Below are positions 17,422 through 35,233 of a stretch of DNA of 38,034 nt, in pieces. Location of the stretch: the NCBI GenBank assembly GCA_020833025.1, contig JAJHRB010000005.1:1-38034 (forward strand). Reading direction: 5' to 3'. Origin of the DNA: Thermoproteaceae archaeon (GTDB taxonomy: Archaea > Thermoproteota > Thermoprotei > Thermoproteales > Thermoproteaceae). Position 1 is the stretch's first letter; every line of letters begins with the position of its first letter. Below the pieces are notes generated by a model. That model saw only the letters and a program-made list of their open reading frames with translations. It was not told the DNA's origin and made no database searches. Made by a program: the position numbers and the translations under genes.

Positions 17422-18384
17422 TCAGCCCCTCAGCTGCACGCAAGTGCCGCCGGCTGCCGCGCTGGCATCGAGCCCGAGCCTCCTCAAGTACCGCGCGAAC
17501 CTCTCCCTGAGCCCGTACGCAACGTAGACGCGCTTCGGCAACGCGCGGAGCGCGAACTCCACGAGCCCGCTGAAGTCGCTGTGATCGCTGAGCGGTATTC
17601 CGTGAATCCCGCGTCTTGCGGCCTCCCGCCTGACAGCCTCGCTGGCGTACCACCCGCTCACCGCGACTCTGAAATAGCCGTAGGGTGCGTGCCGGGCGCC
17701 CGGCACTATCACTACGTTGCTGCGCCCGCCGGCGTGAAATCCGAGCGCCCTGTTATACTGCGAGATTGCGCTGTGAGTCATCACATTAGGCCCCAGCAGC
17801 CTGAAGACCTCCTGCGCCTTGCCGAGCGGGTAGGCTATCACGGCCACGCCGCCGTTCCTGGCGCGGTCCTCGACGAGATCCATCAGCTCGCTGTACACCT
17901 CAGCCCTGTTCGGGAAGATATAGGCAGGGTCGCCGTAGGTGGCCTCCATTATCAACGCATCAGGCCTCTCGACAGGCTCTGCGGCGTCTGCGAGTATGCT
18001 GCCTGCAGTGTTAAAATCTCCGGTGAACAGCAACTGCACGCCGTCTATCTCAACCAGGTACATGGCGCTGCCGGGTATGTGCCCGGCCTCGAGCACTGCC
18101 ACATGAACTCCCTCAATCTCAATCACGTCCCCCACCCTCACCGTGATGACCCTTGCTGGCGGCCGCCCGAACCTGACCGAAATAGCAGCCGCGGTCTCCC
18201 TCGTTGCGACAAGGGGGAGGCTGAGCGCGTCCCGCGTGACGTGATCGCTGTGCGCGTGCGTGACGAGGGCGAAGTCAACGCGGCGGCTCACCCAGCCGGA
18301 CGGGTCCACTGCGAGGCTCGCGCGGCGCCCGGCGACATAAATGCCGCCACCGAAGCACACGCGCACGGCACCGGGTCCCCCCAC
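17422..18384 (-). CDS. Metallo-beta-lactamase-fold exonuclease-like protein (COG1236 type)
   Basis: A 320-residue metallo-hydrolase of the CPSF73/YSH1-like group, predicted RNA or DNA exonucleases. The metal motif LVTHAHSDHV, the LEAGHIPGSAMYLVE strand, the LLFTGDFN aspartate, and MEATYGDP are clear. YPLGKAQEVFRLL and the late LSDHSDFSGLVEF supply the beta-CASP-type end. I chose the GTG at 18384 because the shared AT-rich promoter is 24 nt upstream; an ATG at 18396 in the same frame is possible. Much longer in-frame extensions are shadows of the divergent Fe-S gene. Substrate is not visible. Confidence 0.8.
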   Translation of the reverse strand: MGGPGAVRVCFGGGIYVAGRRASLAVDPSGWVSRRVDFALVTHAHSDHVTRDALSLPLVATRETAAAISVRFGRPPARVITVRVGDVIEIEGVHVAVLEAGHIPGSAMYLVEIDGVQLLFTGDFNTAGSILADAAEPVERPDALIMEATYGDPAYIFPNRAEVYSELMDLVEDRARNGGVAVIAYPLGKAQEVFRLLGPNVMTHSAISQYNRALGFHAGGRSNVVIVPGARHAPYGYFRVAVSGWYASEAVRREAARRGIHGIPLSDHSDFSGLVEFALRALPKRVYVAYGLRERFARYLRRLGLDASAAAGGTCVQLRG

Positions 18385-18402
18385 CTTTTCAAGCATGCCG
18401 CA

Positions 18403-18415
18403 TTTTTTTAACATA
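18403..18415. promoter_or_regulatory. Single AT-rich box shared by two divergent leaderless genes
   Basis: One T-run followed by AACATA lies 23 nt (box centre) before GTG 18431 on the plus strand and 24 nt before GTG 18384 on the minus strand. It is the only AT-rich element between them, so it probably directs both transcripts. Confidence 0.5.
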
Positions 18416-18430
18416 GAGGGTCTGAGCCGC

Positions 18431-18721
18431 GTGCGTATCGAGCAGGCGCTTGAGGAGGCGAGCAAGTGTGCGTTCTGCGGGTTCTGCGAGTTCGCGTGCC
18501 CGACGTACAGAGCACTGAGAGTGAGACACATGGGGCCCAGAGGCCGCGTCACGATAGCCAGGCTCCTGGACGGGCGGCTGACCTCCACGGCCGCGGCTAG
18601 CATCATGACGTGCCTCGCGTGCGGGGCTTGCGAGGCGAGGTGCCCCCTCGGGCTTAAGATAGCGAGCATATTGCGGGCGGCCAAGGCGCGCGTGACCGCC
18701 CTTCTCGCCGGGACAACTTAA
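18431..18721 (+). CDS. Small two-cluster [4Fe-4S] protein (GlcF/LutA N-domain-like)
   Basis: A 96-residue electron-transfer protein with two CxxCxxCxxxCP motifs: CAFCGFCEFACP near residues 15-26 and CLACGACEARCP near 58-69. Spacing and surrounding helices match the ferredoxin part of GlcF, LutA-associated and HdrC/D proteins. Start GTG 18431 is set by the promoter; an ATG at 18395 in frame would give a longer N-terminus. The next gene encodes the CCG-domain partner, so together they resemble one GlcF-type protein split in two. Cytoplasmic; no membrane segment. Confidence 0.8.
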   Translation: MRIEQALEEASKCAFCGFCEFACPTYRALRVRHMGPRGRVTIARLLDGRLTSTAAASIMTCLACGACEARCPLGLKIASILRAAKARVTALLAGTT

Positions 18722-18746
18722 AGGCCGCTTGCGTGATGCTACGCGC

Positions 18747-19682
18747 ATGGAGCCGAGCCCCCGGTGGATAGCTGCGTTGAGGGATCTGGTGCTCTCATCG
18801 CTGAGGGAGTACGGGCTGCCGCTGCCGCTCGATAAAGGAGTGTGTTCCGAGTGGAGGAGGGGGCTGCCGAGCGGGCCCTCGCGCCGCGTGCTTTACACGT
18901 CGTGCATGTACCAGCTCGCGCCTGCGATCAGCAGGGCTGTCGGCGCGATCGAGAGGGCGGGAGCGGCGGGCGGCGGGCTCCGCGCCGCGCTCGCGTCAAT
19001 CGGCGCGAAGATTTTCGGGAGGCTGGTCGTGAGACCCGACGAGAGAGAGCTAGAGAGGACCGGCGCAATACTGCGCAGTATATACTCTCTGCTGAGGAGG
19101 GGCGGAGTTGAGTTCGGCCTGCTCGACGACGAGCCTTACTCCGGGGCGCTGCTCTACGAGCTCGGCTTTGTTGACGACTTTGCCCGGCACGCGAGAGAGG
19201 TCTACGCGCATTTCAAGCGCGCGGGCGTGAGGGAGGTCATAACGGTGGACCCGCACACTCACTACGTGCTCGAGAGGGTCTACCCCCAGTTTATTCCCGA
19301 GTTCGACATAAAGGTTGTCAGCTACATTGACCTCATTGACCCGGCCGCCGTCAAGGTTAGGGCCAGGCATTTTGTAATTCACGACTCGTGCCTATACGCC
19401 AGATTCCTCGACAGGCACGCCAGAGTGAGGGAGCTGCTGGCCAGCGGGGACCCCGTGGAGGATCCGCTAGTGACGGGCAGGGAGTCCTCGGGCTGCTGCG
19501 GCGGGCCGATCGAGTCCGTGGCCCCGGCGCTGTCTGCAAAAATCGCAAGAGAGCGCGTGGAGAGGCTCTCAAGGCTCTCGCGCACGGTCGTCGTTATGTG
19601 CCCGATATGCCTGGCCAGCCTAGGGAGGGCGGGATCGGGGCTCGTTGAAGTGAGAGACCTCTCCGAGCTTCTTGAGCTATGA
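18747..19682 (+). CDS. CCG-domain protein, LutA/GlcF C-terminal-like
   Basis: A 311-residue protein with cysteine-rich (CCG) domains that bind special Fe-S clusters in LutA, GlcF, HdrB and DsrK. A first, degenerate domain starts at VLYTSCMYQLA; the second has HDSCLYARF, the SSGCCGGP core and CPICLASLG. ATG 18747 lies about 26 nt after a TATA-like ACTTAAAGG. The C-terminus overlaps the lutB-like gene by 4 bases, so these are co-translated. Likely substrate is a 2-hydroxyacid such as lactate, by analogy with Lut systems. Confidence 0.78.
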   Translation: MEPSPRWIAALRDLVLSSLREYGLPLPLDKGVCSEWRRGLPSGPSRRVLYTSCMYQLAPAISRAVGAIERAGAAGGGLRAALASIGAKIFGRLVVRPDERELERTGAILRSIYSLLRRGGVEFGLLDDEPYSGALLYELGFVDDFARHAREVYAHFKRAGVREVITVDPHTHYVLERVYPQFIPEFDIKVVSYIDLIDPAAVKVRARHFVIHDSCLYARFLDRHARVRELLASGDPVEDPLVTGRESSGCCGGPIESVAPALSAKIARERVERLSRLSRTVVVMCPICLASLGRAGSGLVEVRDLSELLEL

Positions 19683-20830
19683 GCTGGCGAGAGGCAATTG
19701 AAAGGGCGTTTCTAAACGTCGTGCCGAGGACTTACGAGCTACTGTCGCGCTACCCGTACGTACAGGAGCTGGCGCGGGAGATCAGGAAGGTTAGGGAGGG
19801 AGTCGTGAAAAATCTCGACCGGTACATCGAGGAGCTGAGGAAGTCCGTCGAGAGGGCAGGGGGCAGGTTCTATCTCGCGGAGACTGCAGAGGAGGCCGTG
19901 GAGACCGCGGCCCGGATCGTAGGCAGGGGGAAGCTGGTTGTGATGGGGAAGAACAACGTTGCGGTGGAGACGGGGCTTAGGAGGAGGCTGGAGCAGGAGG
20001 GCAATGAGGTGTGGGAGACCGACCTGGGAATGTTTTTGTTGCAGCTAAGCGGCGACGAGCCGAGCTACTTAATATCGCCAGCGCTTCACATGACTAGAGA
20101 GACGGCGGCAGAGGTATTAAAGAGGCGTCTGGGCGTTGACGTCCCCCCAGACCCGGCGGCTGTAGCGCAGAGGGCTAGGGAGTTCTTGCGCGAGAAGATA
20201 GTTAAGGCTGACGTCGGCATAACGGGGGCAAACGCTATCGCGGCCGACACAGGCGCCGTCGTGCTGGTGGAGAACGAGGGCAACATAAGAATGGTGACTG
20301 CGATCCCGCCCGTGCACATAGTCTACGACGGCGTGGAGAAAATCGTCCCGACGCTCGTGCACGCGCTCTACGTTGCGTGCGTCCAGGCGGCTTACGCCGG
20401 CGCCTACCCCCCGACGTACATAAACGTGACGGCAGGCCCGAGCTCGACGGCGGACATAGAGAAGCAGCGAGTCTCGCCGGCACAGGGACCCAGGGAGTAC
20501 CACGTCGTGCTGGTAGACGGCGGGAGGCGCCGCGCGGCGAGAGATCCCGCGCTCTGGGAGGCGCTGCTCTGCATAAGGTGCGGCAGGTGCCATTTCCACT
20601 GCCCGGTCTACCGCGCAGTGGGGAGGGAGTTCGGCAGGCCCCCCTATACCGGGCCCATGGGCGTGATGTGGACCGCAATAACACGCGGCATTGAGGCGGC
20701 GGGGCCTCACGCATTCAGGTGCACTCACGCGGGCAACTGCAGGGAGGTGTGCCCAATGGGCATAGACACCCCACGCATAATTCATGAAATCAGGAGGAGG
20801 TACGCTCTCAGCGTTGCGATCCTGCGCTAG
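19679..20830 (+). CDS. lutB: LutB-like iron-sulfur protein (lactate oxidation)
   Basis: A 383-residue LUD-domain plus ferredoxin protein like LutB/YkgF, a subunit of the non-flavin L-lactate oxidation complex. Residues 1-270 show the LUD fold with RIVGRGKLVVMGKNNVAVE, GITGANAIAADTGAVVLVENEGN and the MVTAIPPVHIV strand. The C-terminal third holds CIRCGRCHFHCP and CTHAGNCREVCP, two [4Fe-4S] sites. It is slightly shorter than bacterial LutB (about 470) at both ends. Overlaps the CCG gene start-to-stop. No LutC was seen. Alternative: a formate or other hydroxyacid oxidation module. Confidence 0.82.
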   Translation: MSWREAIERAFLNVVPRTYELLSRYPYVQELAREIRKVREGVVKNLDRYIEELRKSVERAGGRFYLAETAEEAVETAARIVGRGKLVVMGKNNVAVETGLRRRLEQEGNEVWETDLGMFLLQLSGDEPSYLISPALHMTRETAAEVLKRRLGVDVPPDPAAVAQRAREFLREKIVKADVGITGANAIAADTGAVVLVENEGNIRMVTAIPPVHIVYDGVEKIVPTLVHALYVACVQAAYAGAYPPTYINVTAGPSSTADIEKQRVSPAQGPREYHVVLVDGGRRRAARDPALWEALLCIRCGRCHFHCPVYRAVGREFGRPPYTGPMGVMWTAITRGIEAAGPHAFRCTHAGNCREVCPMGIDTPRIIHEIRRRYALSVAILR

Positions 20831-21452: not shown

Positions 21453-22805
21453 GTGGTACCGCGCGTTGTAATCTCGGCCGTCAGGGGCATGTCCGGCAAG
21501 ACCATCGCCACGCTCGGCATCATCTACGGGCTTGTGAGGCGCGGGCTTAGAGTCGCGCCGTTTAAGGTGGGGCCCGACTATATCGACCCGACGTACCACC
21601 GCGCGGTGTCTGGCGTCTACAGCAGGAACTTAGACGTCGTGCTGATGGGAGAGCGAGGCGTCGTGATGCGGTTTGTGAAATACTCGCGGGGCGCCGACGT
21701 GGCTATCATAGAGGGCGTGATGGGCCTCTACGACTCGATCGACGGAGTGTCAGAGCTCGGCTCGACGGCCCAGGTGGCTAAGCTGCTCAAGGCCCCCGTA
21801 ATTCTAGTCCTCAGCGGGGAGAGAGTAAACAGGACGCTGCGTGCCGTTGTGAGAGGGCTTAAGTCATTCGACGCGCATGTTGAAATAAGGGGCGTGATTC
21901 TAACTGATGTAGTTCCAGGGCAGGCTGAGAAATTAAAACGGGGGCTGTCCGAGGAGGGGGTAGAGGTGCTCGGCACAATTCCGAGGTCGGGGGCCGTGAG
22001 CAGCGCGTTCGGCTACCGGCATCTAGGCCTCGTGCCCTTCGGCGAGAGAGAGAACGGCGCGGGACTTTTCAACGTGATAGAGAGCTACATCGCGCCGAAT
22101 ATTGACACAGATAGAGTGGTGGCCATAGCGAGAGAGGCCGGAGACCTTGAGTGCCCCGGCGATTGCGGCGAGAGCGGCAGTGAGCGCGCGGGGGGCCGCT
22201 GCAGGGTCGGCATCGTGATGGACAGGGCATTCACGTTCTACTACCCTGAGGTGATAGAGGAGGCCTGCAGGCTCGGCGAGCCCGTTTTTGTAAACTCGCT
22301 CAAGGATCCCGAGCTGCCGCACGTTGATGTTTTAATGATTGGCGGCGGGTTCCCCGAGGTCATGGCGGAGGGGCTGGAGAAGAACAGGTCGTTTAGAAGG
22401 TCCGTCCTTCGTTACGTGGAGGGGGGCGGGAGGCTTTACGCTGAGTGCGGCGGCTTGATGTACATGACGTCATCCATAATAGTCGACGGGTCTGAGTACG
22501 AGATGGTCGGCGCTGTGGATGCGGTCACGGTTGTCTTGAGGAAGCCTGTTGGCAGGGGTTACGCGTGGGGCAGAGTCGTCGCCAGGACGCCAATCGCGCC
22601 GCCCGGCACCGAGCTGCGGGGGCACGAGTTCCACTACTCGAAAGTAATACTGCGGGAGAGGCCGGCGCTGGCAATAAGGCTTGAGCGCGGCGTGGGCATC
22701 GGCGGCGGGTGGGACGGCATTGTCAAGGGCAACATGCACGCGCAGTACCTTCACATACACCCGGAGACCTACAGCGCTCTCGGGGCGCTATGCCGGTCTA
22801 TGTAG
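21453..22805 (+). CDS. dsrN: Cobyrinic acid a,c-diamide synthase family, probable siroamide synthase (DsrN-like)
   Basis: A 450-residue ATP- and glutamine-dependent amidase of the CbiA family. P-loop AVRGMSGKTIATLG is near residues 9-22, FKVGPDYIDPTYH at 38-50, IEGVMGLYDSIDG near 90-102. The C-terminal class I glutaminase domain has GGFPEVMAE, YAECGGLMYMTSS with nucleophile Cys332, GHEFHYSK and YLHIHPE. CbiA itself acts in cobalamin synthesis, but DsrN homologs amidate the siroheme of dissimilatory sulfite reductase. The coupled methyltransferase and the dsr genes 2 kb away favour DsrN; no other cobalamin genes are present. The function within CbiA/DsrN/CfbB is therefore inferred from context. 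Confidence 0.82.
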   Translation: MVPRVVISAVRGMSGKTIATLGIIYGLVRRGLRVAPFKVGPDYIDPTYHRAVSGVYSRNLDVVLMGERGVVMRFVKYSRGADVAIIEGVMGLYDSIDGVSELGSTAQVAKLLKAPVILVLSGERVNRTLRAVVRGLKSFDAHVEIRGVILTDVVPGQAEKLKRGLSEEGVEVLGTIPRSGAVSSAFGYRHLGLVPFGERENGAGLFNVIESYIAPNIDTDRVVAIAREAGDLECPGDCGESGSERAGGRCRVGIVMDRAFTFYYPEVIEEACRLGEPVFVNSLKDPELPHVDVLMIGGGFPEVMAEGLEKNRSFRRSVLRYVEGGGRLYAECGGLMYMTSSIIVDGSEYEMVGAVDAVTVVLRKPVGRGYAWGRVVARTPIAPPGTELRGHEFHYSKVILRERPALAIRLERGVGIGGGWDGIVKGNMHAQYLHIHPETYSALGALCRSM

Positions 22806-23482
22806 TTGGCGCCGGGCCCGGCGACCCCAGGCTGCTCACGCTGAGGGCCGTCGAGCTGCTACAGCAGGCTGACATAGTCGCCTTCGGCGAGCTGGTCCCC
22901 GATGAGATTGTCAGGCTCTACGCGCCGCGGGCGCGCGTCGTTAAACTGGGCCACAGAAGGGCCGAGCACGATGCTGTAATTGACGCCCTTATTGAGGAGG
23001 CCGGGCGGGGTCTCAATGTCGTGGTGCTGAAAAACGGCGATCCAGCAGTGTTCGGCCGCGGCGTGCAGATATGCGCGAGGGCCGAGAGCAGGGGAGTTCC
23101 GTGCGAGATCGTGCCGGGAGTCCCGGCGTTTGCCGCAGCCGCCGCGCTCTTTAAAATAGAGCTCACAAACGGCAAGACTTTAAGGCACGTCTCGCTGTAC
23201 TCCTTCCCCCACTTCAGCGCGGAGACTCTCAGAAGCGCGGCGACGGATACCGTGGTCGTGCACATGATGGGCAATAGACTGGACGTCGTGAGACGCGCAG
23301 TAGAGCAGGGCTGCAGCAGCGAGGCCGAGGTGTTCGTCTGCTACGCGGTATCTCTCGGCGGTGAGTGCCGCCGGGTCGCGCCAAGCGAGCTCCTCAATTA
23401 CAAAAACAAGAGGCCCCTCTTGGTCATAGTCCGCGGGTGCAGGTCGGGCTCAGGCGCAAATGTAAGCCCGAGCTGGCGATAG
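22790..23482 (+). CDS. cobA: Tetrapyrrole methylase, probable uroporphyrinogen-III C-methyltransferase
   Basis: SAM-dependent C2/C7 methylation of uroporphyrinogen III to precorrin-2, the entry to siroheme. The 230-residue protein has the SUMT N-terminal YVVGAGPGDPRLLTLRAVEL, the VLKNGDPAVFGRG loop (GGDPxxFGRG in the family), and EIVPGVPAFAAAAALF. It starts at ATG 22790, 16 bases inside the end of the dsrN-like gene, so they are coupled. CbiF/CobM are close relatives; the VFGRG motif favours SUMT. Its 3' end overlaps a convergent regulator by 33 bases. The dehydrogenase and ferrochelatase of siroheme synthesis are not in the window. Confidence 0.82.
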   Translation: MPVYVVGAGPGDPRLLTLRAVELLQQADIVAFGELVPDEIVRLYAPRARVVKLGHRRAEHDAVIDALIEEAGRGLNVVVLKNGDPAVFGRGVQICARAESRGVPCEIVPGVPAFAAAAALFKIELTNGKTLRHVSLYSFPHFSAETLRSAATDTVVVHMMGNRLDVVRRAVEQGCSSEAEVFVCYAVSLGGECRRVAPSELLNYKNKRPLLVIVRGCRSGSGANVSPSWR

Positions 23483-23899
23483 CTCGTGAAGCAGGGCCTT
23501 GACCTCGGGGATGTGGCTGTTCAAAACGCACCACCCCACGAATTCCATCAGACTGCGGGGGAGCTTGCCCCCGCTTATAATGGCGTCCAGTACCGGCCTT
23601 AGAGTCTCCTCCCGGAGCCCTAGCTTGCGCGACAGTAATCTCTGAGCGTAAACCTTAGAGCTCCCGTCGAGTTTGTACAGGAGGAGTAGCCCGTAAATCG
23701 TGAGCGTGCACCGGCTGCCGCGCGCGTGCCTCTCGCACTCGATTATGCCGAGGCTTTCAAGCCTCTTTATGAGATTGTAAAGAAACGACGGGTAGAGGCT
23801 CATCTCCTTCATTATTTTGTAGGGAGAGGGGCCGGCGCCGTAAGAGAACTCTTCAAGCGCCACGGCTCTGAGGATGCTGAGGGAGATTGCGTCGAGCAT
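23450..23899 (-). CDS. Winged-helix DNA-binding protein
   Basis: A 149-residue putative transcription regulator. Residues 1-70 look like a MarR/PadR-type winged helix: helix-turn-helix around PYKIMKEMSLYPSFLYNLIK and a wing at ERHARGSRCTLTIYG. The remaining 80 residues are helical (LLYKLDGSSKVYAQRLLSRK onward) and contain Cys near the end, possibly a sensing or dimer part. ATG 23899 has a TATA-like GTGTATAT about 25 nt upstream. Located between the siroheme genes and dsrC with a second regulator of similar design; both could act on the dsr genes, which is inference. Confidence 0.65.
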   Translation of the reverse strand: MLDAISLSILRAVALEEFSYGAGPSPYKIMKEMSLYPSFLYNLIKRLESLGIIECERHARGSRCTLTIYGLLLLYKLDGSSKVYAQRLLSRKLGLREETLRPVLDAIISGGKLPRSLMEFVGWCVLNSHIPEVKALLHELSPARAYICA

Positions 23900-23953: not shown

Positions 23954-24583
23954 CTAAAGCCTGTAGATCTGCTTTACGCTAGGGCGTGGCGAGTGCTGGC
24001 GGCGTGCGTACCCGGCGGCATTACTGCAAAGATAAATGCTCCACACGCTGAAGCGCGACAGGAATTTCAAGCTGTTGCTCAGCACTGCCTGGTCCACAGG
24101 GTCTGTCCCTTTATCTACGAGATACGTCAGAACGTAGGAGGTCGAGGCCGCGGGGCTGCAAATGAACGCCTCGCGTATATTAAACCCGAAGTGTCTAATA
24201 GCCCGGCCGAGCAGTATCAAGTACGCTACAAGCATCTCGCTGTCGACATTTAGGGACCAGATACTCTTTACGCGGTTCAAGTACTCCAAGTTTTTAGTGA
24301 GCGCCATCAGTGAAAGCGGGCCCTTAACTGTGGCCGCGTACCCCCGGCTGGATGCCAGCAGTACAAGTCTATTCTCGTTCAGATACTTCACGGCCTTGTA
24401 AACGGTTGACATGCTGTATTTCCTCACCTCCCTAGCGACCTCGTAAGGCGTGAAAGCCCGTGGGTAGTTCCTCACAAAGAAATCGAGAATGCACGCGTGC
24501 GTGTCGCTGAGAGGCGGCACGAGGGCTCTCCACGTCTCTAGAAGCTCCGAGACAAAACCGTGCCCAAGCTGCCCGCCACTCAC
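23954..24583 (-). CDS. Winged-helix DNA-binding protein
   Basis: A 209-residue putative regulator. Residues about 25-85 form a winged helix with a helix-turn-helix at TPYEVAREVRKYSMSTVYKA and a wing at NRLVLLASSRGYAATVKGPL. The C-terminal 120 residues (LNVDSEMLVAYLILLGRAIR, then FGFNIREAFICSPAASTSYV) are helical with two Cys and may form a ligand-binding domain. GTG 24583 is chosen because a TATA-like box is about 27 nt upstream; a TTG at 24607 would lie on the box itself. Not a family I can name. AT content is visibly higher than in neighbours. Confidence 0.6.
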   Translation of the reverse strand: MSGGQLGHGFVSELLETWRALVPPLSDTHACILDFFVRNYPRAFTPYEVAREVRKYSMSTVYKAVKYLNENRLVLLASSRGYAATVKGPLSLMALTKNLEYLNRVKSIWSLNVDSEMLVAYLILLGRAIRHFGFNIREAFICSPAASTSYVLTYLVDKGTDPVDQAVLSNSLKFLSRFSVWSIYLCSNAAGYARRQHSPRPSVKQIYRL

Positions 24584-24605
24584 GCGGGAGAAAAGCGTCA
24601 AAAAC

Positions 24606-24614
24606 AAAATTTAG
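24606..24614 (-). promoter_or_regulatory. TATA-like promoter of the 24583 regulator
   Basis: CTAAATTTT on the minus strand, about 27 nt before the GTG at 24583. Confidence 0.5.
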
Positions 24615-24648: not shown

Positions 24649-24984
24649 CTAGACGCAGCCGGTGGGCTTAGGCGCGCCGGCAATCTTACAAGCGCCAGAC
24701 GCGGGGCCCGACGGGAACAGCTGGTAGATCTGCTCCAGCGTGAAGCCAGTCTCCTTGAGCAACATTTTAATTGGCGGGCACACGCCGTAGGTCTCCCAGT
24801 ACTCCCTCAGGTACTTAACGACCTTCCAGTGATCCGGCGTCATCTGCTGTATGCCCTCTATCTCGCGGGCCATCCACTCGGCGACCTTCTCGTTCCAGTT
24901 CTCTGGATTCTGCATGAAGCACTCCTCGTCAAGCACAACGGTTGTGTCGTCGACCTTGTACTCTCCCGGGCACTTTATTGGCAT
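24649..24984 (-). CDS. dsrC: DsrC, sulfur-carrier protein of dissimilatory sulfite reduction
   Basis: Accepts sulfur from DsrAB as a trisulfide and delivers it for reduction by DsrK. The 111-residue protein matches DsrC/TusE, with NEKVAEWMAREIEG, MTPDHWKVVKYLREYWETYG and CPPIKMLLKETGF. The flexible C-terminal arm has both redox cysteines, Cys99 and Cys110, in the CX10C spacing of true DsrC (TusE lacks the first). Cys110 is followed by one Val, so it is the second-last residue as expected. It has its own TATA-like box and can be expressed apart from dsrAB. Confidence 0.95.
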   Translation of the reverse strand: MPIKCPGEYKVDDTTVVLDEECFMQNPENWNEKVAEWMAREIEGIQQMTPDHWKVVKYLREYWETYGVCPPIKMLLKETGFTLEQIYQLFPSGPASGACKIAGAPKPTGCV

Positions 24985-25027: not shown

Positions 25028-25366
25028 TCAGCGCAATAGCTGGCACTCCACGCCGTATTTCTCCCTCAGGCGGCTGAGCAGCCCTGGCAGCTCCTCCTCA
25101 AACACCCTGGCAATTATCCTGTCCCAGTCGAGCGCTATGTCGCTGACGCGCAGCTTGATCTCCAGCGACGGCAGCGCGAGGTTTTTCGAGCAGTCAAAGG
25201 GCGCCAGCCCGATCACGAGCGTTGTTGTCATGCCGGCCCACGGGAAGTTCCTCTTAGTGACGGGAATGCCAGCGCTCGAGAGCTCCTCGCAGCGGCCGCT
25301 CACTCTGACCTTTCTGTCGAGGACGAACAGGAGGAGGTAGCCGTCCTCAAGGAGTCTCGAGAGCAC
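25028..25366 (-). CDS. Unknown protein encoded between dsrB and dsrC
   Basis: A 112-residue protein that I do not recognise. It has mixed strands and helices: LEDGYLLLFVLDRKVRVSGR, then TKRNFPWAGMTTTLVIGLAP, ALPSLEIKLRVSDIALDWD and a charged C-terminal helix with CQLLR. Three Cys are present, no membrane segment. GTG 25366 is the only standard start; the open frame continues upstream to 25433 without another start codon, and a GAGGAGGA Shine-Dalgarno-like run is near 25399, so the true N-terminus may be a few residues longer with a CTG. It follows dsrB by about 90 bases and is probably in the dsrAB operon. It does not resemble DsrD. Confidence 0.6.
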   Translation of the reverse strand: MLSRLLEDGYLLLFVLDRKVRVSGRCEELSSAGIPVTKRNFPWAGMTTTLVIGLAPFDCSKNLALPSLEIKLRVSDIALDWDRIIARVFEEELPGLLSRLREKYGVECQLLR

Positions 25367-25455: not shown

Positions 25456-26619
25456 CTAAATAGCATCCCTGACGCGCCTCCAGACCCACTCGCCGCGCCA
25501 CCTGTACGCCATGAACGTGCGCGCGTGCTCCGGCATGTACATGTAGTCGGCCGGGAGCCTCGGGAGCCCGAGCAGCTCGGTGAATCTCGCCCAGCTTATT
25601 CTGTCTATTAAGTCGCCTATTCTCTCGCCCGGCCTTGCGTTCTGGCGCCAGACCTCCACTATTTTCTTGACCACGGCAACCACCTCGGGGTATCTCGGCG
25701 GGTTGGACGGCAGCCACGGAATCAGCATGCGCCCAACTCTGGGCCCGCTCCCTGTGTTCGACAGCCTGCCCCCGACGATTATGCCCCAGCCCACCTCCTC
25801 CGGCTCGTAGTCGAAGGCGTCGCAGTTGTCCTTGCACCTGACGCAGTTGATGCACCGGGCCTCTATAAGCTCGAGCGTAAACTTCTCGCCAACTCTCTTA
25901 ACCCTGAGAGCACCCACGGGGCATACTTGCACCATGAACACCTTCGACTCCGGTATCCTGGCGAGAGCCTTCGGCGGCGGTATGCACACCGGCAGTATGT
26001 CCTCTCGGATTATCGGCGCGGCGCCCCACACGCCTATAATTGATATATCCATTGCCGTGCCGCCAGCGCAGGCGTTCGGGCAGCCCGACACGAAGACTCT
26101 GAGCTTTGCCGGCAGCGGGATCTCGCCGGTGAAGTACGGCTTGAGCTGGTCGCCAATGGCCTTCGCCAATGATACCGCATCGGTAACTCCAATCTGGCAC
26201 GTGAGGAATGCCGTACACGCGTTGATGCCCCACAGTGTGTTCCTCCATCCGCCGACGAGGAAGCCGAGCTTCTCCACTTCCTCCTTTATTTTGAGCGCCT
26301 TGTCGAGCGAGTCCGTGATGAACTCGACGTTAGCCGCCGTGGTGATCCTTAACGCCCCGATGCCGTACTTGTCGGCAATGTCGCAGAACTTCAGCAGGGT
26401 GTCAGCGCTGAACCTAGCGTTTGGCGTGCCGGAGACCTTGATAGTGAATACCCTCTCTCCGGTCTCCGATATGTGCTCGATTATGCCGTAGCCGTGGAAC
26501 CTCCTCTCCTTCCACTTGCCATAGTTGCGCCTGATTACATCTGGCAGCCAGTACTCCAGGCCCTTGTGCGCCGGGAATACCAGCTCTATTGCCCCCCTGC
26601 CAGCTGGCGGGGCGCTCAT
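25456..26619 (-). CDS. dsrB: Dissimilatory sulfite reductase beta subunit
   Basis: With DsrA forms the siroheme enzyme that reduces sulfite. The 387-residue protein has the siroheme/[4Fe-4S] cysteines C135 and C141 (CX5C in NACTAFLTCQIG) and C180 and C184 (CX3C in SGCPNACAGG). The inserted ferredoxin domain has C233 (VCPVGAL) with C256, C259, C262 and an extra C266. The ATG overlaps the dsrA stop as ATGA. Start residues SAPPAGRGAIELVFPAH agree with the family. Slightly longer than many DsrB. Confidence 0.95.
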   Translation of the reverse strand: MSAPPAGRGAIELVFPAHKGLEYWLPDVIRRNYGKWKERRFHGYGIIEHISETGERVFTIKVSGTPNARFSADTLLKFCDIADKYGIGALRITTAANVEFITDSLDKALKIKEEVEKLGFLVGGWRNTLWGINACTAFLTCQIGVTDAVSLAKAIGDQLKPYFTGEIPLPAKLRVFVSGCPNACAGGTAMDISIIGVWGAAPIIREDILPVCIPPPKALARIPESKVFMVQVCPVGALRVKRVGEKFTLELIEARCINCVRCKDNCDAFDYEPEEVGWGIIVGGRLSNTGSGPRVGRMLIPWLPSNPPRYPEVVAVVKKIVEVWRQNARPGERIGDLIDRISWARFTELLGLPRLPADYMYMPEHARTFMAYRWRGEWVWRRVRDAI

Positions 26620-27869
26620 ATCCCTAGCTCTTGCTTGACTTTTTTAGCATACTCGGCGTAAACCTGGCGCTCCTCCGGCGGCAGTATCCTGTACGGCACA
26701 TCGTCTGGCATCTTTTCATAGAATGCCGGCATCTCTATCAGGAACTTGTCAAGCTCTGCCTCCTTTACGAACCTCTGTATGCCCAGGTATATTATTACAT
26801 CGGCGATGCGCTGCTTCGGCATCCCGTACTTGTCCCAGACCTCCCATATCTTCTCCATCATGTCAACTACGCGCTTGGCGCTCACGTCTGGGGGCAGGTA
26901 GCCGACGAACCAGCCTAGCTTCACGCCGTAGTACCCCTTGTTGTTCCCGCCGAGGAGCACGGCAATTCTCTTCTCTCTTCCGGGCTTTATTGCAGGGTGA
27001 GCGAGCCTTATGCACTCCATGCACTTCACGCACCTCTTCTCGTTAATTCTCAGCTCCTGCCTGACGGGATCCCAGGATATTGCGCCGCTCACGCACCCTC
27101 TCTCCAGCTCGCGCGGGTCAACCTCGCCGCGCTTGACCTTCTCCCTAAGCAGCTCCTGATCGACCTCCGGCGCGCCCTTCCACGTGCCCAGCAGCCCGAG
27201 ATCTCCTCTGTTGGCTCTGGCGCAGTCAAACGGGCAGCCCGATAGCTTAGGCTTGAACTTGTAGTGGAAGTTAGGCGCCCTTATGTTCTCGTGAACTCTC
27301 GGGTCGAGGTGTAGGTCGCACCACAACTTCAGCGTATCGTAACACGCAAACTCGCAGAGCGCGGGGCCCACGCACGCGGCCAGTGCCCTAATGGCGTCGG
27401 CGCTCCCGCCGACGTCGGTGCCAAGCTCGCGCAGCTTGTCAGCCACTACCTCGGCGTACTCCTTCTTCGTGATATTTATGATCATGTTGCCTGTCTGCCC
27501 TACCACCTCCAGCAGGCCAATTGCGTACTCTCTAATTGCGTCGAGCAGCTTGCGGAACCAGTCCGTCTTGAGGAATCTGCCCGGCGTGTGGAAGACTCTC
27601 AGGTGTATCTCCTCGCCCGGCAGGCCGAGCCACGGCCTTGCAATTCTGGCCATTGTCCCCGTCAGGTACCTCGTCCTGACGGCGCTTGGTGCCCACGGGC
27701 TCTTGCCCACCACGAGACCGGCGCCGTAAACGTGCAGCGGATAGCCGGTCTTTCTCAGCTCCGTGACGTGACTGGGCCACGGACCCTTCTCAAGCTCCTT
27801 CAAGTACTGCTCGGCCAGCTCCTTCAGCTTGTCGGGCGGCGGAACCCCACGCTTTGGGGGATACGCCAT
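26616..27869 (-). CDS. dsrA: Dissimilatory sulfite reductase alpha subunit
   Basis: Catalytic/structural alpha subunit of DsrAB. The 417-residue protein has C166 and C172 (CX5C in ACVGPALCEF) and C212 and C216 (CX3C in SGCPFDCARANRGDLG). Its ferredoxin insert has C259 (GCVSGAI), C280, C283 and C286 (CVKCMEC). HTPGRFL and KSPWAPSAVRTRYL are substrate-side arginines. The ATG has a TATA-like TTAAAAATT about 26 nt upstream, making dsrA the first gene of a dsrA-dsrB-(unknown) unit. Confidence 0.96.
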   Translation of the reverse strand: MAYPPKRGVPPPDKLKELAEQYLKELEKGPWPSHVTELRKTGYPLHVYGAGLVVGKSPWAPSAVRTRYLTGTMARIARPWLGLPGEEIHLRVFHTPGRFLKTDWFRKLLDAIREYAIGLLEVVGQTGNMIINITKKEYAEVVADKLRELGTDVGGSADAIRALAACVGPALCEFACYDTLKLWCDLHLDPRVHENIRAPNFHYKFKPKLSGCPFDCARANRGDLGLLGTWKGAPEVDQELLREKVKRGEVDPRELERGCVSGAISWDPVRQELRINEKRCVKCMECIRLAHPAIKPGREKRIAVLLGGNNKGYYGVKLGWFVGYLPPDVSAKRVVDMMEKIWEVWDKYGMPKQRIADVIIYLGIQRFVKEAELDKFLIEMPAFYEKMPDDVPYRILPPEERQVYAEYAKKVKQELGI

Positions 27870-27908: not shown

Positions 27909-28682
27909 TTAAGAGCGTAACCCGGCCTCCCTCGACCCTGTGATTTTGTATGGCGCCATTGTAATTGTGGGCTCGAAGAATATAGCGAATGGGTGTACCA
28001 TCTTGCCGAACGGCACGTAGAGCATGAGAATCTCGGCAAGCAGCACGTGCACCTTAACCATTACGTGCGCCTCGGAGATGTACCTGGCTGCCTCCATTAT
28101 ATTGCCGCTGAGGAGGTTTACAAGCCACGGCGTCACAGTGTGAACGTAGTCCGGGTGTATCACCGTTGTGTTTATCGTGCCTATTATGACAATTATTGTA
28201 ATCAGCGTGAGTGCGAACCAGTCATCGAGGTACGAAATAGCCCTAACATCTCTCCTGCCGAGCCTCCTCGCCCAGAGAATTGCAAGCCCCGCGAGTATTA
28301 TGAGGCTGAACGCCGCGCCCATGTAAACGGCCAGCTCCTTGCGCAGCTCGTACGGCACGCCCATGGCCTCCAGCTGCTCCGGCGTGATGAATAGAGCTGT
28401 GTGCCCTAGAAACAGCGTCAGGAAGATTCCCCAGTGGAACAGGAACGCGCCCCAGAAGAGCGACCTGCTGGCATACATGAGCGTGTAGAAGGTAATAATG
28501 CGCCTCACGACCTCGACGGCTCTGCTGGCAATTCCCCAGTGGTATGAAATAACGGAGACGGAGGCCAGGCTGGTCAGGCCGCCGGGGGACACCCACGTTA
28601 TTATCCTGTATACAATGCCCACCACCATTACCGCGAGCGCGATGAGCCCGAGCGCACAAAATAGCGCGAGATCCAGCAGCAT
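27909..28682 (-). CDS. dsrM: DsrM/NarI-like membrane haem b subunit (first copy)
   Basis: A 257-residue integral membrane cytochrome b related to DsrM, HmeC and NarI, which oxidises menaquinol. Five or six hydrophobic helices are visible: LALFCALGLIALAVMVVGIV, the FHWGIFLTLFLGHTALF segment, AFSLIILAGLAILW, LTLITIIVIIGTINTT and VHVLLAEILMLYVPFG. His residues in SYHWGI, FHWGI, LGHTA, HVMVKVH and KMVHPF are haem-ligand candidates. It is upstream of dsrA on the same strand but has its own TATA-like box. Its DsrK partner is not adjacent; the orphan DsrK at 33791-35233 is a candidate. Confidence 0.82.
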   Translation of the reverse strand: MLLDLALFCALGLIALAVMVVGIVYRIITWVSPGGLTSLASVSVISYHWGIASRAVEVVRRIITFYTLMYASRSLFWGAFLFHWGIFLTLFLGHTALFITPEQLEAMGVPYELRKELAVYMGAAFSLIILAGLAILWARRLGRRDVRAISYLDDWFALTLITIIVIIGTINTTVIHPDYVHTVTPWLVNLLSGNIMEAARYISEAHVMVKVHVLLAEILMLYVPFGKMVHPFAIFFEPTITMAPYKITGSREAGLRS

Positions 28683-30185: not shown

Positions 30186-31079
30186 GTGTCCATGTGTCCC
30201 CTGGCCGTTTTCATGTACGTGGCAGTGGCGCTTTTCATTGCAGGCATTGCCAGAATGGCGCGCAGGTATGCCACGATGCCCATGCACTTAAGGTGGGAGC
30301 TGTACCCCGTGCCGCACGAGGTTGGCCACGAGCACGGCGGCTCGTATCTTGAATACGTCGAGTGGTGGAATAGGAAATTCCCCAAAAACAGACTGGCGGA
30401 GATCTCGGAGCTTCTCAAGGAGCTGCTATTTATAGTCAGGCTGTACAGGGGCAGGCGCACTGTCTGGTGCTTCAGCTTTCCATTTCACGGCGGGGTCTAC
30501 CTGCTGCTGCTCTGGGGCGCGTCGCTGGTACTGCTTGCTGTCTCCGGCGCCCTCATCCCGGCAGATCTACACTCCGCGGTGAGCGCCGCGTCGCTGGCGC
30601 TCGGATACCTGGGCGCCGCCGCCGCAACGTTCGGCATAGCCGGCCTGACCGCGTTGAGGCTGACGAGAACAATGAGAATGTACACAACGCCCCTCGAGTA
30701 CTTCAACAACACTTTCATACTCGTAGTTCTCGTGTCCGGCTTTCTCGCGGCGTCGCAGGACCCGTCGTTCTCAACGGCTGTCGCCTTCGTGAGGCACATG
30801 CTCGGAGGCCCCGCCCCCGAGCTGCCGCCCCTGGTGGCGGCGCACGTGATACTGCTCGGGCTGCTGGTAATATACATCCCGTATACGAAAATCGCTCACT
30901 TCATAGGCAAGTACTTCACGTACCACAAGGTGCTGTGGGACTCAGAGCCTCTGAGAATTGGAGGTGCCGTGAACGAGCACTTAAATAGGAAAATATTAGA
31001 AGCGCTGAGCCGCCACGAGATCACGTGGAGCGCGCCGCACATACCCCGCGGCAGGAAGTGGGCGGAGGTGGGGGCATGA
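30186..31079 (+). CDS. dsrM: DsrM/HmeC-like membrane haem b subunit (second copy)
   Basis: Menaquinol-oxidising membrane subunit paired with the next gene. About 297 residues. Helices are AVFMYVAVALFIAGIA, FPFHGGVYLLLLWGASLVLL, LALGYLGAAAATFGIAGLTA, YFNNTFILVVLVSGFLA and AHVILLGLLVIYIPYT. The MHLRWELYPVPHE segment after helix 1 is characteristic of DsrM, TmcC and HmeC. Histidines in FPFHGG, AAHVIL, KIAHF and TYHK are haem candidates. Start is GTG 30186 or ATG 30192. The stop overlaps the dsrK ATG as ATGA. Confidence 0.86.
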   Translation: MSMCPLAVFMYVAVALFIAGIARMARRYATMPMHLRWELYPVPHEVGHEHGGSYLEYVEWWNRKFPKNRLAEISELLKELLFIVRLYRGRRTVWCFSFPFHGGVYLLLLWGASLVLLAVSGALIPADLHSAVSAASLALGYLGAAAATFGIAGLTALRLTRTMRMYTTPLEYFNNTFILVVLVSGFLAASQDPSFSTAVAFVRHMLGGPAPELPPLVAAHVILLGLLVIYIPYTKIAHFIGKYFTYHKVLWDSEPLRIGGAVNEHLNRKILEALSRHEITWSAPHIPRGRKWAEVGA

Positions 31080-32683
31080 GCGCCGAGAGCGTGATTAGGC
31101 TGCTCAGCCGCGAGGACGTCAAGCAGGTCGTTAAGCTTGACGTGTCAAAGCTGCTCCCGCTCGACCCGCTGCCAGACGAGCCTCCGATTGAGGAGCCGCC
31201 GGCTAAGCTCGCCGAGCTTTATGACTTCAGCCTCGACGGCCACGTCGCGGTGGGAATACCCAGGCCCAAGACAGAGGAGGAGAAGAGGAAGCTTGTCCAG
31301 GGGTTCCTCGAGGGCCTCAGGAAGCTGATAACGAGAGGCGACAACTGGACGTTCCTCCAGCCGCTGCTGCTAACGCTCGAGTTCTGCGCCAAGTGCCAGG
31401 CGTGCGCCGAGGCCTGCCCCATTTACCTGGCCAGCGGCAGGCAGGAGGTCTACAAGCCGATAGTGCGGGCCGAGGTCCTCAGGAGGATTTACAAGAGGTA
31501 CTTCACGAGGCCGGGGAGGCTCTTCGGCAAGTTTGCCTCGGGCGACGTAGAGGTGAACTGGACGCTCGTCTACAGGCTGATCGAGCTGGCCTACAGGTGC
31601 ACGCTGTGCAGGAGGTGCGCGCAGGCGTGCCCCATGAGCGTGGACAACGGCCTCATAAGCAGGGAGATCAGGAAAATTGCGAGCCAGGAGCTAGGCTACG
31701 CCCCCAAGGAGGTTCACGAGAAGGGCACCGTCCAGCACCTCAAGGTCGGCTCGTCAACCGGCATGACGCCCAAGGGCTTGCTAAAGACCGTGAAGTTCCT
31801 CGAGGAGTACATCCGCGAGAAGACGGGCAAGAGCATAAAGATTCCGGTGGACGAGAAGGGCGCCGACATACTACTGGTGCACAACGCCGGCGAGTTCCTC
31901 TCGTGGCCCGAGAACCCCGCGGCGTTTGCCATAATATTCGAGGAGGCCGGTATGAGCTGGACAATGTCGAGCGAGCCCTTAGGCTATGACATCGTCAACT
32001 ACGGGGCGTGGTATGACGACGTGCAGCTGGCTAAGATAGTGCTGAGGCAGGTAGAGGTCGCGAGGAAGCTCGAGGTGAAGAAGATCGTCATAGGCGAGTG
32101 CGGCCACGCAACAAAGGCTCTGATCGTCGTGGCCGACAGAGTACTGCCGAAGGAGCTCAACATCCCGAGAGAGTCTGCGCTGCCGCTGCTGGCGGAGATC
32201 GTCGAGAGAAAGAAGCTCAACCTTGATCCAACGCGCAACAACTTCCCCGTGACCCTTCACGACCCGTGCAACGTGGTAAGGCTCTCCGGCATAGTCGAGC
32301 CGCAGCGCAGGGTCCTCAGGGCAATAGCTCCGCAGTTCAGGGAGATGGAGCCGCACGGCGTGTATAACTACTGCTGCGGCGGCGGCAGTGGCTTTGCCAT
32401 AATGCACTCGTACAACTTCGACCAGTGGAGGAACAAGGTGTCGGCCAGAATGAAGGTGAGGCAGATACTCAACGCCTTCCGCGACGTGCTCGACCCGTCG
32501 CGCTACCCCTTCAAGTACGTCTGCGCCCCGTGCAGCAACTGCAAGGGCGCGATCAGGGACGCCATAAGGCACTACGGCCTCTGGGAGCGCTACAGGATAA
32601 ACTACGGCGGGCTCGTCGAGCTCATGGTAAACGCGATGGCAGACCTGCCGAAGCCCTACATCGACTACAGCGAGTTCCACTAG
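31076..32683 (+). CDS. dsrK: DsrK/HdrD-like iron-sulfur protein (first copy)
   Basis: Cytoplasmic catalytic subunit of DsrMK, passing electrons from quinol to the DsrC trisulfide. The 535-residue protein has two ferredoxin motifs, CAKCQACAEACP from residue 104 and CTLCRRCAQACP from 175. The CCG-type domain holds HDPCNVVRL, YCCGGGSG (433 on) and CAPCSNCKGA, which bind the noncubane cluster. Residues 1-95 form a proline-rich N-terminal extension. Coupled to dsrM by a 4-base overlap with a GGAGG-like ribosome site inside the dsrM end. Confidence 0.9.
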   Translation: MSAESVIRLLSREDVKQVVKLDVSKLLPLDPLPDEPPIEEPPAKLAELYDFSLDGHVAVGIPRPKTEEEKRKLVQGFLEGLRKLITRGDNWTFLQPLLLTLEFCAKCQACAEACPIYLASGRQEVYKPIVRAEVLRRIYKRYFTRPGRLFGKFASGDVEVNWTLVYRLIELAYRCTLCRRCAQACPMSVDNGLISREIRKIASQELGYAPKEVHEKGTVQHLKVGSSTGMTPKGLLKTVKFLEEYIREKTGKSIKIPVDEKGADILLVHNAGEFLSWPENPAAFAIIFEEAGMSWTMSSEPLGYDIVNYGAWYDDVQLAKIVLRQVEVARKLEVKKIVIGECGHATKALIVVADRVLPKELNIPRESALPLLAEIVERKKLNLDPTRNNFPVTLHDPCNVVRLSGIVEPQRRVLRAIAPQFREMEPHGVYNYCCGGGSGFAIMHSYNFDQWRNKVSARMKVRQILNAFRDVLDPSRYPFKYVCAPCSNCKGAIRDAIRHYGLWERYRINYGGLVELMVNAMADLPKPYIDYSEFH

Positions 32684-32714: not shown

Positions 32715-33698
32715 GTGATAGTTCAGGTCGAGATCTCCAGCGCGTGCAACGCGCGCTGCGCGTACTGCCCCGCGGCCGTGCTGCGCGGCGAGTGGGTGCC
32801 CCAGCTGATGAGCGAGCACCTCTTCAGCGTGCTGGTGCGGGAGCTACATGGCCTGCAGCCTGAGTACGTGCACCTCCAGGGGTGGGGCGAGCCACTGCTC
32901 CATCCGGAGTTCGACTCCTTTGCCGAGATGGCACTGGAGGTGTCCAGGGCCGGCGTGACCACCAATGCAACGCTTATCGACAGGCACCTCGACGCGGTCT
33001 CGGGGCTGGACCTAGTCGCCGTGACTTTCGCCGGCGCGAGGCCGGGGACTCACAATTTCTACAGGCCGGGCTGCGACTTCGACAGAGTTGTGAGCAATGT
33101 TAGACTGCTGGCAAGGAGGAGGCGCGGCAGGATGGTGGCAGTTTACATGCTCCTCGGCGACAACTACAGGGAGCTCCCGGAGTTTGTCAGCCTGGCAGCC
33201 GAGCTCGGCTTCGACGAGGTGAAGGCAAGCAACGTGAACTACCTGCCGACAGCCGAGGTCGCCGCGATGAGGGCGTTCTCCGACCTATTTGAGCCCCCGA
33301 GGCGCGACGTCGAGAGGGCGCTGGAGGAGGCCGCGGGGAGAGCGGAGAGGCTGGGGCTCTCGTTCAGGTCTGATCTCGTCGTGCCGAGCGAGCTCGCCGA
33401 GTGCCCCGAGCGGCCGACGAATGCCATATTTATCGGCGTGCGGGGCGAGGTCTCGCCGTGCGTTTACCTGAACCTCCCGACGCGCAGCGGCACCATAAGG
33501 CGCGTCTTTAACGGGAGGGAGGTGACAGTCGAGAAGGTCGTCCTCGGCAAGGTTGGCGAGAGGCCGCTGAGGGAGGTGCTCAAGAGGGCGAGAGAGTTCG
33601 CGCGGAGGTTCGAATATAGGAGATACAACCTGGATGTCGGGAACCCGGCGGAGCCCCCTCGCGCATGCCTGACGTGCTACAGGCTCTACGGGGTGTGA
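32715..33698 (+). CDS. Radical SAM protein with C-terminal cysteine cluster
   Basis: A 327-residue radical SAM enzyme. The SAM-cluster motif CNARCAYC (Cys11, 15, 18; CX3CX2C) is right at the N-terminus, followed by VHLQGWGEPLLHPEF (the GGE-like loop) and a partial TIM barrel. The C-terminal part has cysteines in AECPERP, VSPCVYLN and ACLTCYRLYG, suggesting a SPASM-like auxiliary cluster. Relatives modify peptides or cofactors; haem (Ahb) and tungsten-cofactor enzymes are in the wider group. Starts at GTG 32715, 31 bases after dsrK; no promoter was seen, so probably in that operon. The substrate is unknown. Confidence 0.82.
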   Translation: MIVQVEISSACNARCAYCPAAVLRGEWVPQLMSEHLFSVLVRELHGLQPEYVHLQGWGEPLLHPEFDSFAEMALEVSRAGVTTNATLIDRHLDAVSGLDLVAVTFAGARPGTHNFYRPGCDFDRVVSNVRLLARRRRGRMVAVYMLLGDNYRELPEFVSLAAELGFDEVKASNVNYLPTAEVAAMRAFSDLFEPPRRDVERALEEAAGRAERLGLSFRSDLVVPSELAECPERPTNAIFIGVRGEVSPCVYLNLPTRSGTIRRVFNGREVTVEKVVLGKVGERPLREVLKRAREFARRFEYRRYNLDVGNPAEPPRACLTCYRLYGV

Positions 33699-33790: not shown

Positions 33791-35233
33791 TTACTTCCTC
33801 TTGGGGACTATCGCCCTGTAAACTAGGTCCATCAGCCCCCCGAATGTTATGTTCTTGCCGTACATCTTGTTGAGGTCCATCATTATGCTGTTTAGCGTGC
33901 CCTTGCACATTGAGCAGGGCCTGACGACGTGCTCCGCGCCCACCTTCAGAGCGCACTCGTACCACAGCCTGGCGTACTGCAGCCTGAGCGGCTTCATTTC
34001 GTCTGCCAGCATTCCCGCCTGCCCGCCGCAGCACCAGTTCAGCTGGCGGTTCTGCGGGCACTCGGCCCACCTCTTGACGACGTGGTTCATGATGAACCTG
34101 GGCTCCTCGTAGAGGTCCCCGCCCCTGCTGTACTGGCACGGGTCCTGGTACATGTAAACCTTGTCGGGGTTCTGCGAGGGGTCCAGCGCTATTGCGTTCT
34201 CCTTTATCGCCTTGACGACCAGGTGGTGTATGTGGTATGTCCTTATGCCGCGCCTCTCAAGCTCCGGCGCGACGACGTTCTTCCACGCCCTCCACCCGTG
34301 GCCGCACTCGCCGAATATTCCAACCTTGACGCCCAGCATCTCTGCCGCCTCGATGTACCTCTGCGCGCAGTGCCTCAGGATCCTCTCGTGGCTCCAGACC
34401 CCGAAGTTCGCGACCTCAGTGTTGTACGTGTTTACGGCGAACTTGACGCCGTACTCGTGCAGGAACATGATGTAGCCCTTCAGAGTCTCGGTGTTCAGGA
34501 ATAAGTCCGCCGAGGAGGGCCAGAGAATGGCCTCCGGCCAGTCGGGGTCTCCCGGCGAGAGCTCGCGGACTGGCTTGCTCCCCTTGAATAATATCATTTT
34601 CTTCTTGTCGTGCCTGTAAATGCAGAACTCCGGCGACACGCCCTTCTCGCTCTCTATTTCCTTCACGAAGTACGTTATGATGTTCTCGACGGCTGCCGGC
34701 GTTATCCTCATCAGGTTGCCCGTCTCGATGAACCCGTCGATGGACATGAGGGCCCACCTGCTCGCCAGCCCTGCCTCCAGCAGCACCCCGCGGACCGCCC
34801 TCGTGATGTCCGCCTGGTCCACGCCGAAGGGACAGACGTAGCCGCAGCGCCTGCACGTCAGGCACTGCCAGTAGTAGGTGTAGAGCAGGTCGAGCGCCCT
34901 CTCGTCCGCCCGCTTCCTGCGCTTGATCACGTCACGCAGCAGCTCGGCGCGCCCGACTGGGGAGTTCCTCACGTCCCGCGTCGCCAGATATGTCGGGCAC
35001 GCATCGATGCACGCGCCGCAGTGGACGCACGTGTCGACGGCAATTCTTATGTTTCTGTTGCGCGCGTATTCCTCCCTGAGCCTCCTCTCGACGTACCCGT
35101 ACCTGTCAGCCGGTATGCCGCCCAAGCCCGCTGCTTTGTGTACCTTCAGCAGCAGGCTCTCGGGCGCCTTAATCGGCTTGATGTTTGACGTGTCGCCCGG
35201 CCTGAATTCGGGAACGGCGTGGCCGTGCGCCAT
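33791..35233 (-). CDS. dsrK: DsrK/HdrD-like iron-sulfur protein (second copy)
   Basis: A 480-residue relative of the DsrK at 31076, with clusters CVHCGACIDACP (Cys69, 72, 75, 79) and CLTCRRCGYVCP (Cys124, 127, 130, 134). The CCG-type domain is intact: YQDPCQYSRGG, NWCCGGQAG and CSMCKGTLNS. Shared features include GECGHGWRAW (GECGHATKAL in the other copy) and the C-terminal FGGLMDLVYRA. It lacks the long N-terminal extension. No dsrM is adjacent. It has its own TATA-like box divergent from the transporter promoter. Partner may be the orphan DsrM at 27909-28682; inference. Confidence 0.88.
   Translation of the reverse strand: MAHGHAVPEFRPGDTSNIKPIKAPESLLLKVHKAAGLGGIPADRYGYVERRLREEYARNRNIRIAVDTCVHCGACIDACPTYLATRDVRNSPVGRAELLRDVIKRRKRADERALDLLYTYYWQCLTCRRCGYVCPFGVDQADITRAVRGVLLEAGLASRWALMSIDGFIETGNLMRITPAAVENIITYFVKEIESEKGVSPEFCIYRHDKKKMILFKGSKPVRELSPGDPDWPEAILWPSSADLFLNTETLKGYIMFLHEYGVKFAVNTYNTEVANFGVWSHERILRHCAQRYIEAAEMLGVKVGIFGECGHGWRAWKNVVAPELERRGIRTYHIHHLVVKAIKENAIALDPSQNPDKVYMYQDPCQYSRGGDLYEEPRFIMNHVVKRWAECPQNRQLNWCCGGQAGMLADEMKPLRLQYARLWYECALKVGAEHVVRPCSMCKGTLNSIMMDLNKMYGKNITFGGLMDLVYRAIVPKRK

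Follow-up and report, generated by a model that had tools for sequence, protein, structure and literature searches.

Gene content of the locus

The stretch of DNA analyzed here, which we refer to as the window, is a contig (C24) of 38,034 bases from a 1.56-Mb genome that is 94% complete. It contains a gene for an amidase of the CobB/CbiA family, here termed dsrN, followed by a gene for a divergent tetrapyrrole methylase (MT), together with dsrC, dsrB, dsrA and genes that resemble dsrM and dsrK (Table 1). The methylase gene begins with an ATG at 22790, ends with a stop codon at 23480–23482 and shares 16 nt with the 3′ end of dsrN, including the dsrN stop codon, an overlap that suggests translational coupling of the two genes. 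It ends 1166 bp (1.17 kb) from dsrC, which lies downstream on the opposite strand, and the arrangement described in the first-pass annotation of this DNA, a CbiA-family amidase gene paired with a methyltransferase gene about 1.2 kb from dsrC, is present in all its features. The dsrN/MT pair is convergent with dsrCBA and therefore does not form a common operon with these genes in the window genome. In several relatives (e.g., G029, G035, G028 and G044), dsrN and MT are co-directional with dsrAB and near them.

Table 1. Coordinates of the features in the window and of those named at other loci.
Feature	Location	Strand	Description
Lactate-utilisation Fe-S-like gene trio	Window 18341-20830	+	4Fe-4S dicluster protein, cysteine-rich CCG protein, LUD-domain/4Fe-4S protein
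dsrN amidase gene	Window 21453..22805	+	GTG start; 450 aa; CobB/CbiA family; falls in DsrN clade of tree
MT gene	Window 22790..23482	+	Divergent tetrapyrrole methylase linked to Dsr; 230 aa; PF00590; not canonical SUMT
Two ORFs between MT and dsrC	Window 23450-23899 and 23954-24607	-	No Pfam match; winged-helix regulator-like by eye
dsrC	Window 24649..24984	-	TIGR03342, 118 bits
ORF in dsrC/dsrB interval	Window 25028-25366	-	112 aa; no NCBIfam match
dsrB	Window 25456..26619	-	TIGR02066, 431 bits
dsrA	Window 26616..27869	-	TIGR02064, 384 bits, slightly below cut-off 392.9
dsrM-like cytochrome b subunit	Window 27909..28682	-	TIGR00351 narI 63 bits and NF038037 DsrM 54 bits, both under cut-off
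dsrK-like Fe-S subunit	Window 31049..32683	+	NF045796 DsrK 330 bits, under cut-off 400
Radical SAM/SPASM protein	Window 32715-33698	+	Flanked by both dsrK-like genes
Second dsrK-like Fe-S protein	Window 33791..35233	-	NF045796 236 bits, under cut-off
PF03601-family membrane protein	Window 35318-36832	+	Past the dsrK-like genes
MT2	L201 5150-5731; L203 4849-5424; L049 951-1601		Neighbour has PF02239 at two loci; third neighbour assigned from its similarity
DsrN remnant	G042:C1:926374-926532 (L198)		53 aa
Second, broken DsrN copy	G032:C1:836340-837648		Contains stops
DsrN with broken frame	L202 13934-15315 (G027)		Broken near both ends
DsrN of Nitrososphaeria MAG	L084 3272		Beside dsrABC
Corrin cluster	L019 10452-17880 (G000:C9)		CbiX-CbiC fusion; no CbiA or CobQ

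Classification of the amidase

The window amidase scores 420 bits against the TIGR00379 cobB model (cut-off 261) and has CbiA nucleotide-binding and GATase_3 domains that are both complete, with the P-loop (G12–T17), the GATase Cys332 and His434/His436 invariant across 18 orthologs. A PDB sequence search with the protein gave no match at E ≤ 0.001. To place it, amidases from 80 named loci, labelled according to their gene neighbours, were used for a tree, and an IQ-TREE run was made with 53 sequences and supports calculated from bipartitions. The Thermoproteales amidases and the dsr-linked bacterial DsrN form one group (FastTree 0.923; UFBoot 89) that excludes cbi-linked CbiA and the methanogen sequences, and the same grouping was recovered with a UFBoot value of 93 when the Archaeoglobales/Hydrothermarchaeota group was added. 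The window amidase thus lies outside CbiA, and its assignment to DsrN is well supported by its sequence relationships. CfbB, like CbiA, belongs to the same amidase family and carries out the same type of reaction, but this identity was rejected, as the 398 bits obtained with the CfbB model are below the NF033195 cut-off of 560 and the window amidase is positioned outside the CbiA/CfbB part of the tree.

Archaeal DsrN from sulfite reducers with dsrABCMKN has been described as a clade basal to bacterial DsrN (Neukirchen et al. 2023, PMC10504309), and the window protein resembles it in being a CobB/CbiA homolog linked to dsrABCMK and in sharing a common tree clade. The Thermoproteales DsrN differs in that it mostly comes with a coupled tetrapyrrole methylase that is specific to the lineage, and the term “methyltransferase” is absent from the text of PMC10504309. 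Archaeal DsrN is, accordingly, already described, and it is the coupled methylase clade that is new within the literature searched. As a separate observation, the DsrN of a Nitrososphaeria MAG (L084) is nested within the DsrN of one Thermoproteales family and was possibly acquired by transfer; the genome has no methylase ortholog.

Co-occurrence of the amidase with dissimilatory sulfite reductase

The order was identified as Thermoproteales from a named MAG of that order (L083), whose amidase is the same as that of G036, a genome of its genus. A survey of 45 genomes of Thermoproteales, with counts given for those that are at least 90% complete, shows that the amidase and dsrB are both present in 20 genomes and both absent from four, while one genome has only the amidase and none has only dsr (Fisher P = 4e-4). 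The equivalent comparison with the corrin marker cbiD gave 9 genomes with both, 12 with the amidase only, two with cbiD only and two with neither (P = 1). The amidase is found in many genomes that have dsr and lack cbiD (G029, G030, G035, G036, G002–G005, G018 and G026). It is found in essentially no relatives without dsrAB, the sole exception among the near-complete genomes being G037, which has DsrN (in a split frame) and MT. Conversely, G043 has dsrAB without DsrN in a genome that is 80% complete. The amidase decays where dsr has been lost, as in G042, which has no dsr and where the amidase is reduced to a 53-aa remnant. Two other broken DsrN frames, in G032 and G027, are listed in Table 1. 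Together, the tree and the co-occurrence with dsrB bear out the initial suggestion that this is probably a siroheme amidase of the DsrN type.

A divergent methylase of the SUMT superfamily

The protein encoded by the overlapping gene matches PF00590 TP_methylase with 143 bits, and its best-matching models are those of SUMT/CysG (132 and 130 bits), although the 130 bits with the SUMT model TIGR01469 are well under its cut-off of 185. The predicted structure (pLDDT 89) has CysG and NirE as its nearest structures (TM 0.82–0.84). We compared 25 methylase orthologs with 13 canonical SUMTs at the positions of interest, using NirE numbering. R111, K102 and M186 are kept in all 25 orthologs and the GDP motif is also retained, whereas D50, R100, E115 and R149 are missing from 25/25 and R51 from 24/25, all five being retained in 13/13 canonical SUMTs. 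The position of E114 is variable, no conserved arginine was found in the R149-bearing loop of the orthologs, and the methylase clade has its own hallmarks in an invariant H81, an invariant N103 and two invariant Cys residues. In the tree, the methylase and a sister clade that we term MT2 group together (UFBoot 99), apart from a clade of SUMT and NirE (98) that is joined by CbiF (98). Hence, the methylase shares with SUMT/CobA, NirE and the CysG C-terminal domain the methylase fold (TM of about 0.83), the SAM-site motifs and the three retained residues, and it differs from them in its separate clade, its score under the curated cut-off and the loss of five SUMT residues. The fold is thus SUMT-like, with a substrate site that is different. 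CbiF was rejected as an identity, based on 106 bits against a TIGR01465 cut-off of 260 and a position outside the CbiF clade.

By score, residues and tree position we reject the methylase as a canonical SUMT, and the first-pass view that it is the uroporphyrinogen-III methyltransferase for siroheme is not supported. On these sequence criteria the methylase is a paralog of the housekeeping SUMT, and the genome encodes a canonical one elsewhere: it adjoins hemD on contig C28, scores 251 bits (over the TIGR01469 cut-off) and is accompanied on C28 by a precorrin-2 dehydrogenase. Since the genome also has a CbiX-type chelatase, the sole one found being a fusion on contig C9, siroheme synthesis need not involve the window methylase. 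In a survey of archaeal heme genes, nearly every archaeon was counted as having a single SUMT, the sole exception being Archaeoglobus fulgidus (PMC3004389).

Essentially complete orthologs of the methylase (at least 262 bits) occur in Thermoproteales only, among 398 genomes of the phylum that were searched, and, a fragment in G017 aside, the next match in these genomes has 160 bits. No ortholog was found in 28 genomes outside the order, which were mostly reached via dsr-linked amidases and where the best match, at 134 bits, is at the SUMT level. Within the order, the methylase is accompanied by DsrN in 27/27 genomes, and seven genomes have DsrN without it (P = 3e-6); this count leaves out G034, whose protein is MT2 beside a cytochrome-d1-domain protein. 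The methylase gene is usually adjacent to dsrN, in the order DsrN–MT in one family and MT–DsrN in the other, and because the two orders are opposite the adjacency must have survived rearrangement or been rebuilt after it. A chance neighbourhood is excluded, because the adjacency is conserved across the order in both arrangements. MT2, which likewise lacks D50, R51, R100, E115 and R149, directly follows a cytochrome-d1-domain protein in 3/3 genomes; in G034 the protein was recognized from its resemblance to the other two. A NorB-like gene is close to MT2 in one of these loci (L201).

Proposed function of the gene pair

Based on the family and clade membership of the two proteins, their synteny, their co-occurrence and the residue differences described above, we infer a substrate, a position of amidation and a methylated product for the pair, and put forward a hypothetical role that we consider likely overall: the amidase is a DsrN that acts on the siroheme line, and the product of the overlapping gene is a SAM methylase from the SUMT superfamily, dedicated to Dsr and working on the same line. 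By analogy with the CobB family and with the work on A. vinosum as it is cited in PMC10504309, DsrN would most likely use ATP to activate one of the acetate groups on siroheme or sirohydrochlorin and then transfer glutamine-derived ammonia to it, in two half-reactions, to give a mono-amide prior to insertion into DsrAB. The methylase, which would also serve the siroheme line for Dsr and is probably dedicated to the cofactor line of DsrN, has lost several of the SUMT residues for holding and deprotonating uroporphyrinogen III. It may be either a divergent dedicated SUMT, comparable to DsrW and NirE, or an enzyme that methylates a later siroheme or siroamide intermediate. We hold these two versions to be about equal, as the residue pattern favours action on the later ring and the precedents favour a dedicated SUMT.

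In the first version, which is quite conceivable if short of an even chance, the genome has two uroporphyrinogen-III methyltransferases, and the window methylase is a dedicated one that increases the supply of precorrin-2 for Dsr, in the manner of NirE for heme d1 or of the bacterial DsrW. It is consistent with SUMT/CysG being the closest models, with CysG and NirE being the closest structures, with the invariant R111, K102 and M186, and with the sister clade MT2 adjoining a heme-d1-domain protein. There is also a precedent in the bacterial dsr clusters, where a SUMT homolog (DsrWa or DsrV) is encoded with dsrN and dsr genes (PMC6018796), although in the window no precorrin-2 dehydrogenase accompanies the pair, and two bacterial SUMTs from dsrN-bearing contigs, neither of which is labelled DsrW, are in the canonical SUMT clade, unlike the window methylase. 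Against a dedicated SUMT are the score below the SUMT cut-off, the position outside the well supported SUMT and NirE clade, the invariant H, N and Cys residues that set the methylase clade apart, and the loss of D50, R51, R100, E115 and R149 from nearly all of the 25 orthologs (R51 is left in one). NirE is inactive without R149, and the changes R111K and E114Q remove 94% and 84% of its activity, respectively (PMC4731766).

In the second version, to which we give comparable and equally guarded credence, the methylase adds an extra C- or O-methyl group to siroheme, sirohydrochlorin or siroamide, such that DsrAB contains a modified siroheme. This would fit the retention of the SAM-site motifs along with the loss of uroporphyrinogen-binding residues, and it would also fit the partnership, in both gene orders, with the late-acting DsrN in organisms that have a canonical SUMT in addition. 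It is opposed by the literature searched, in which we found no methylated siroheme of any sulfite reductase, and by two genera with both dsr and dsrN (G008–G014) from which the methylase is missing, so that the methylase is dispensable for some archaeal DsrAB. An extended form of this idea, in which the siroheme of Thermoproteales DsrAB is both amidated and methylated by the lineage-specific clade and the sister branch performs the matching step for the heme-d1-type nitrite reductase found in these archaea, is offered as a tentative and rather doubtful speculation. If true, the methylase family would have siroheme-type rings that are complete, or almost so, as its special substrates.

A few bacteria are known to have siroheme amide, and the archaeal sulfite reductases are thought to be nearest to the ancestral form of the enzyme. 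No report of amidated siroheme in these archaea was found in the literature searched, and the locus predicts this cofactor in a tractable set of hyperthermophiles. Moreover, the methylase would be given the database name SUMT and yet fails the tests for a SUMT, which points to a possible difference between the archaeal and bacterial cofactors.

Relation of DsrN to the corrin pathway

The genome contains a corrin-ring cluster on contig C9 (cbiF, cbiL, cbiT, cbiD, cbiH, a cbiX-cbiC fusion, cbiE and cbiG) that has no CbiA of its own. The window amidase is the only CobB-type amidase in the genome, the other GATase_3 matches being PdxT and PurQ only. The first-pass argument that no other cobalamin genes are nearby therefore holds for the neighbourhood and not for the genome, and by itself it is weak because the C9 cluster lacks a CbiA. 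The assignment to DsrN is rescued by two complete relatives (G033 and G040) that have a corrin cluster and no dsr, and in which there is no CobB/CobQ-type amidase whatever. The same observations bear on whether the amidase serves the siroheme (Dsr) and corrin pathways alike in organisms that have both. DsrN could do so given that the C9 cluster is without CbiA, and consistent with this, six cbiD-containing genomes (G000, G027, G028, G031, G032 and G041) have no CobB-type amidases other than the DsrN-type proteins, and no CbiA is present in the corrin clusters that were read. We consider such a dual role to be unlikely, as the same corrin cluster persists in G033 and G040, which have neither such an amidase nor CobQ, and from this it follows that the cluster is independent of DsrN. 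A main role as the CbiA of the B12/corrin pathway, which would agree with the NCBIfam name (cobB/CbiA) and with this being the sole CobB-type amidase beside a corrin cluster without CbiA, is very improbable and is rejected, since the amidase tracks dsr and not cbiD, is absent from complete cbiD-containing relatives without dsr, groups with DsrN in the tree and coexists with separate CbiA-like paralogs in the sister family.

These paralogs are second amidases that occur besides DsrN in six genomes of the sister family (G002–G005, G013 and G014). All six are in the CbiA group, and the one that was scanned has its top score with the cobyrinic acid model. The CbiA-like amidase is present at these loci (L190–L195, L243 and L244) despite there being no cbiD in the genomes, and cobyric acid synthase is present in both of the genomes that were checked for it, G002 and G013. 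In the family of the window genome, the arrangement of the C9 corrin cluster (L019), with a CbiX-CbiC fusion and without CbiA or CobQ, is also seen at L199, L200, L227 and L228.
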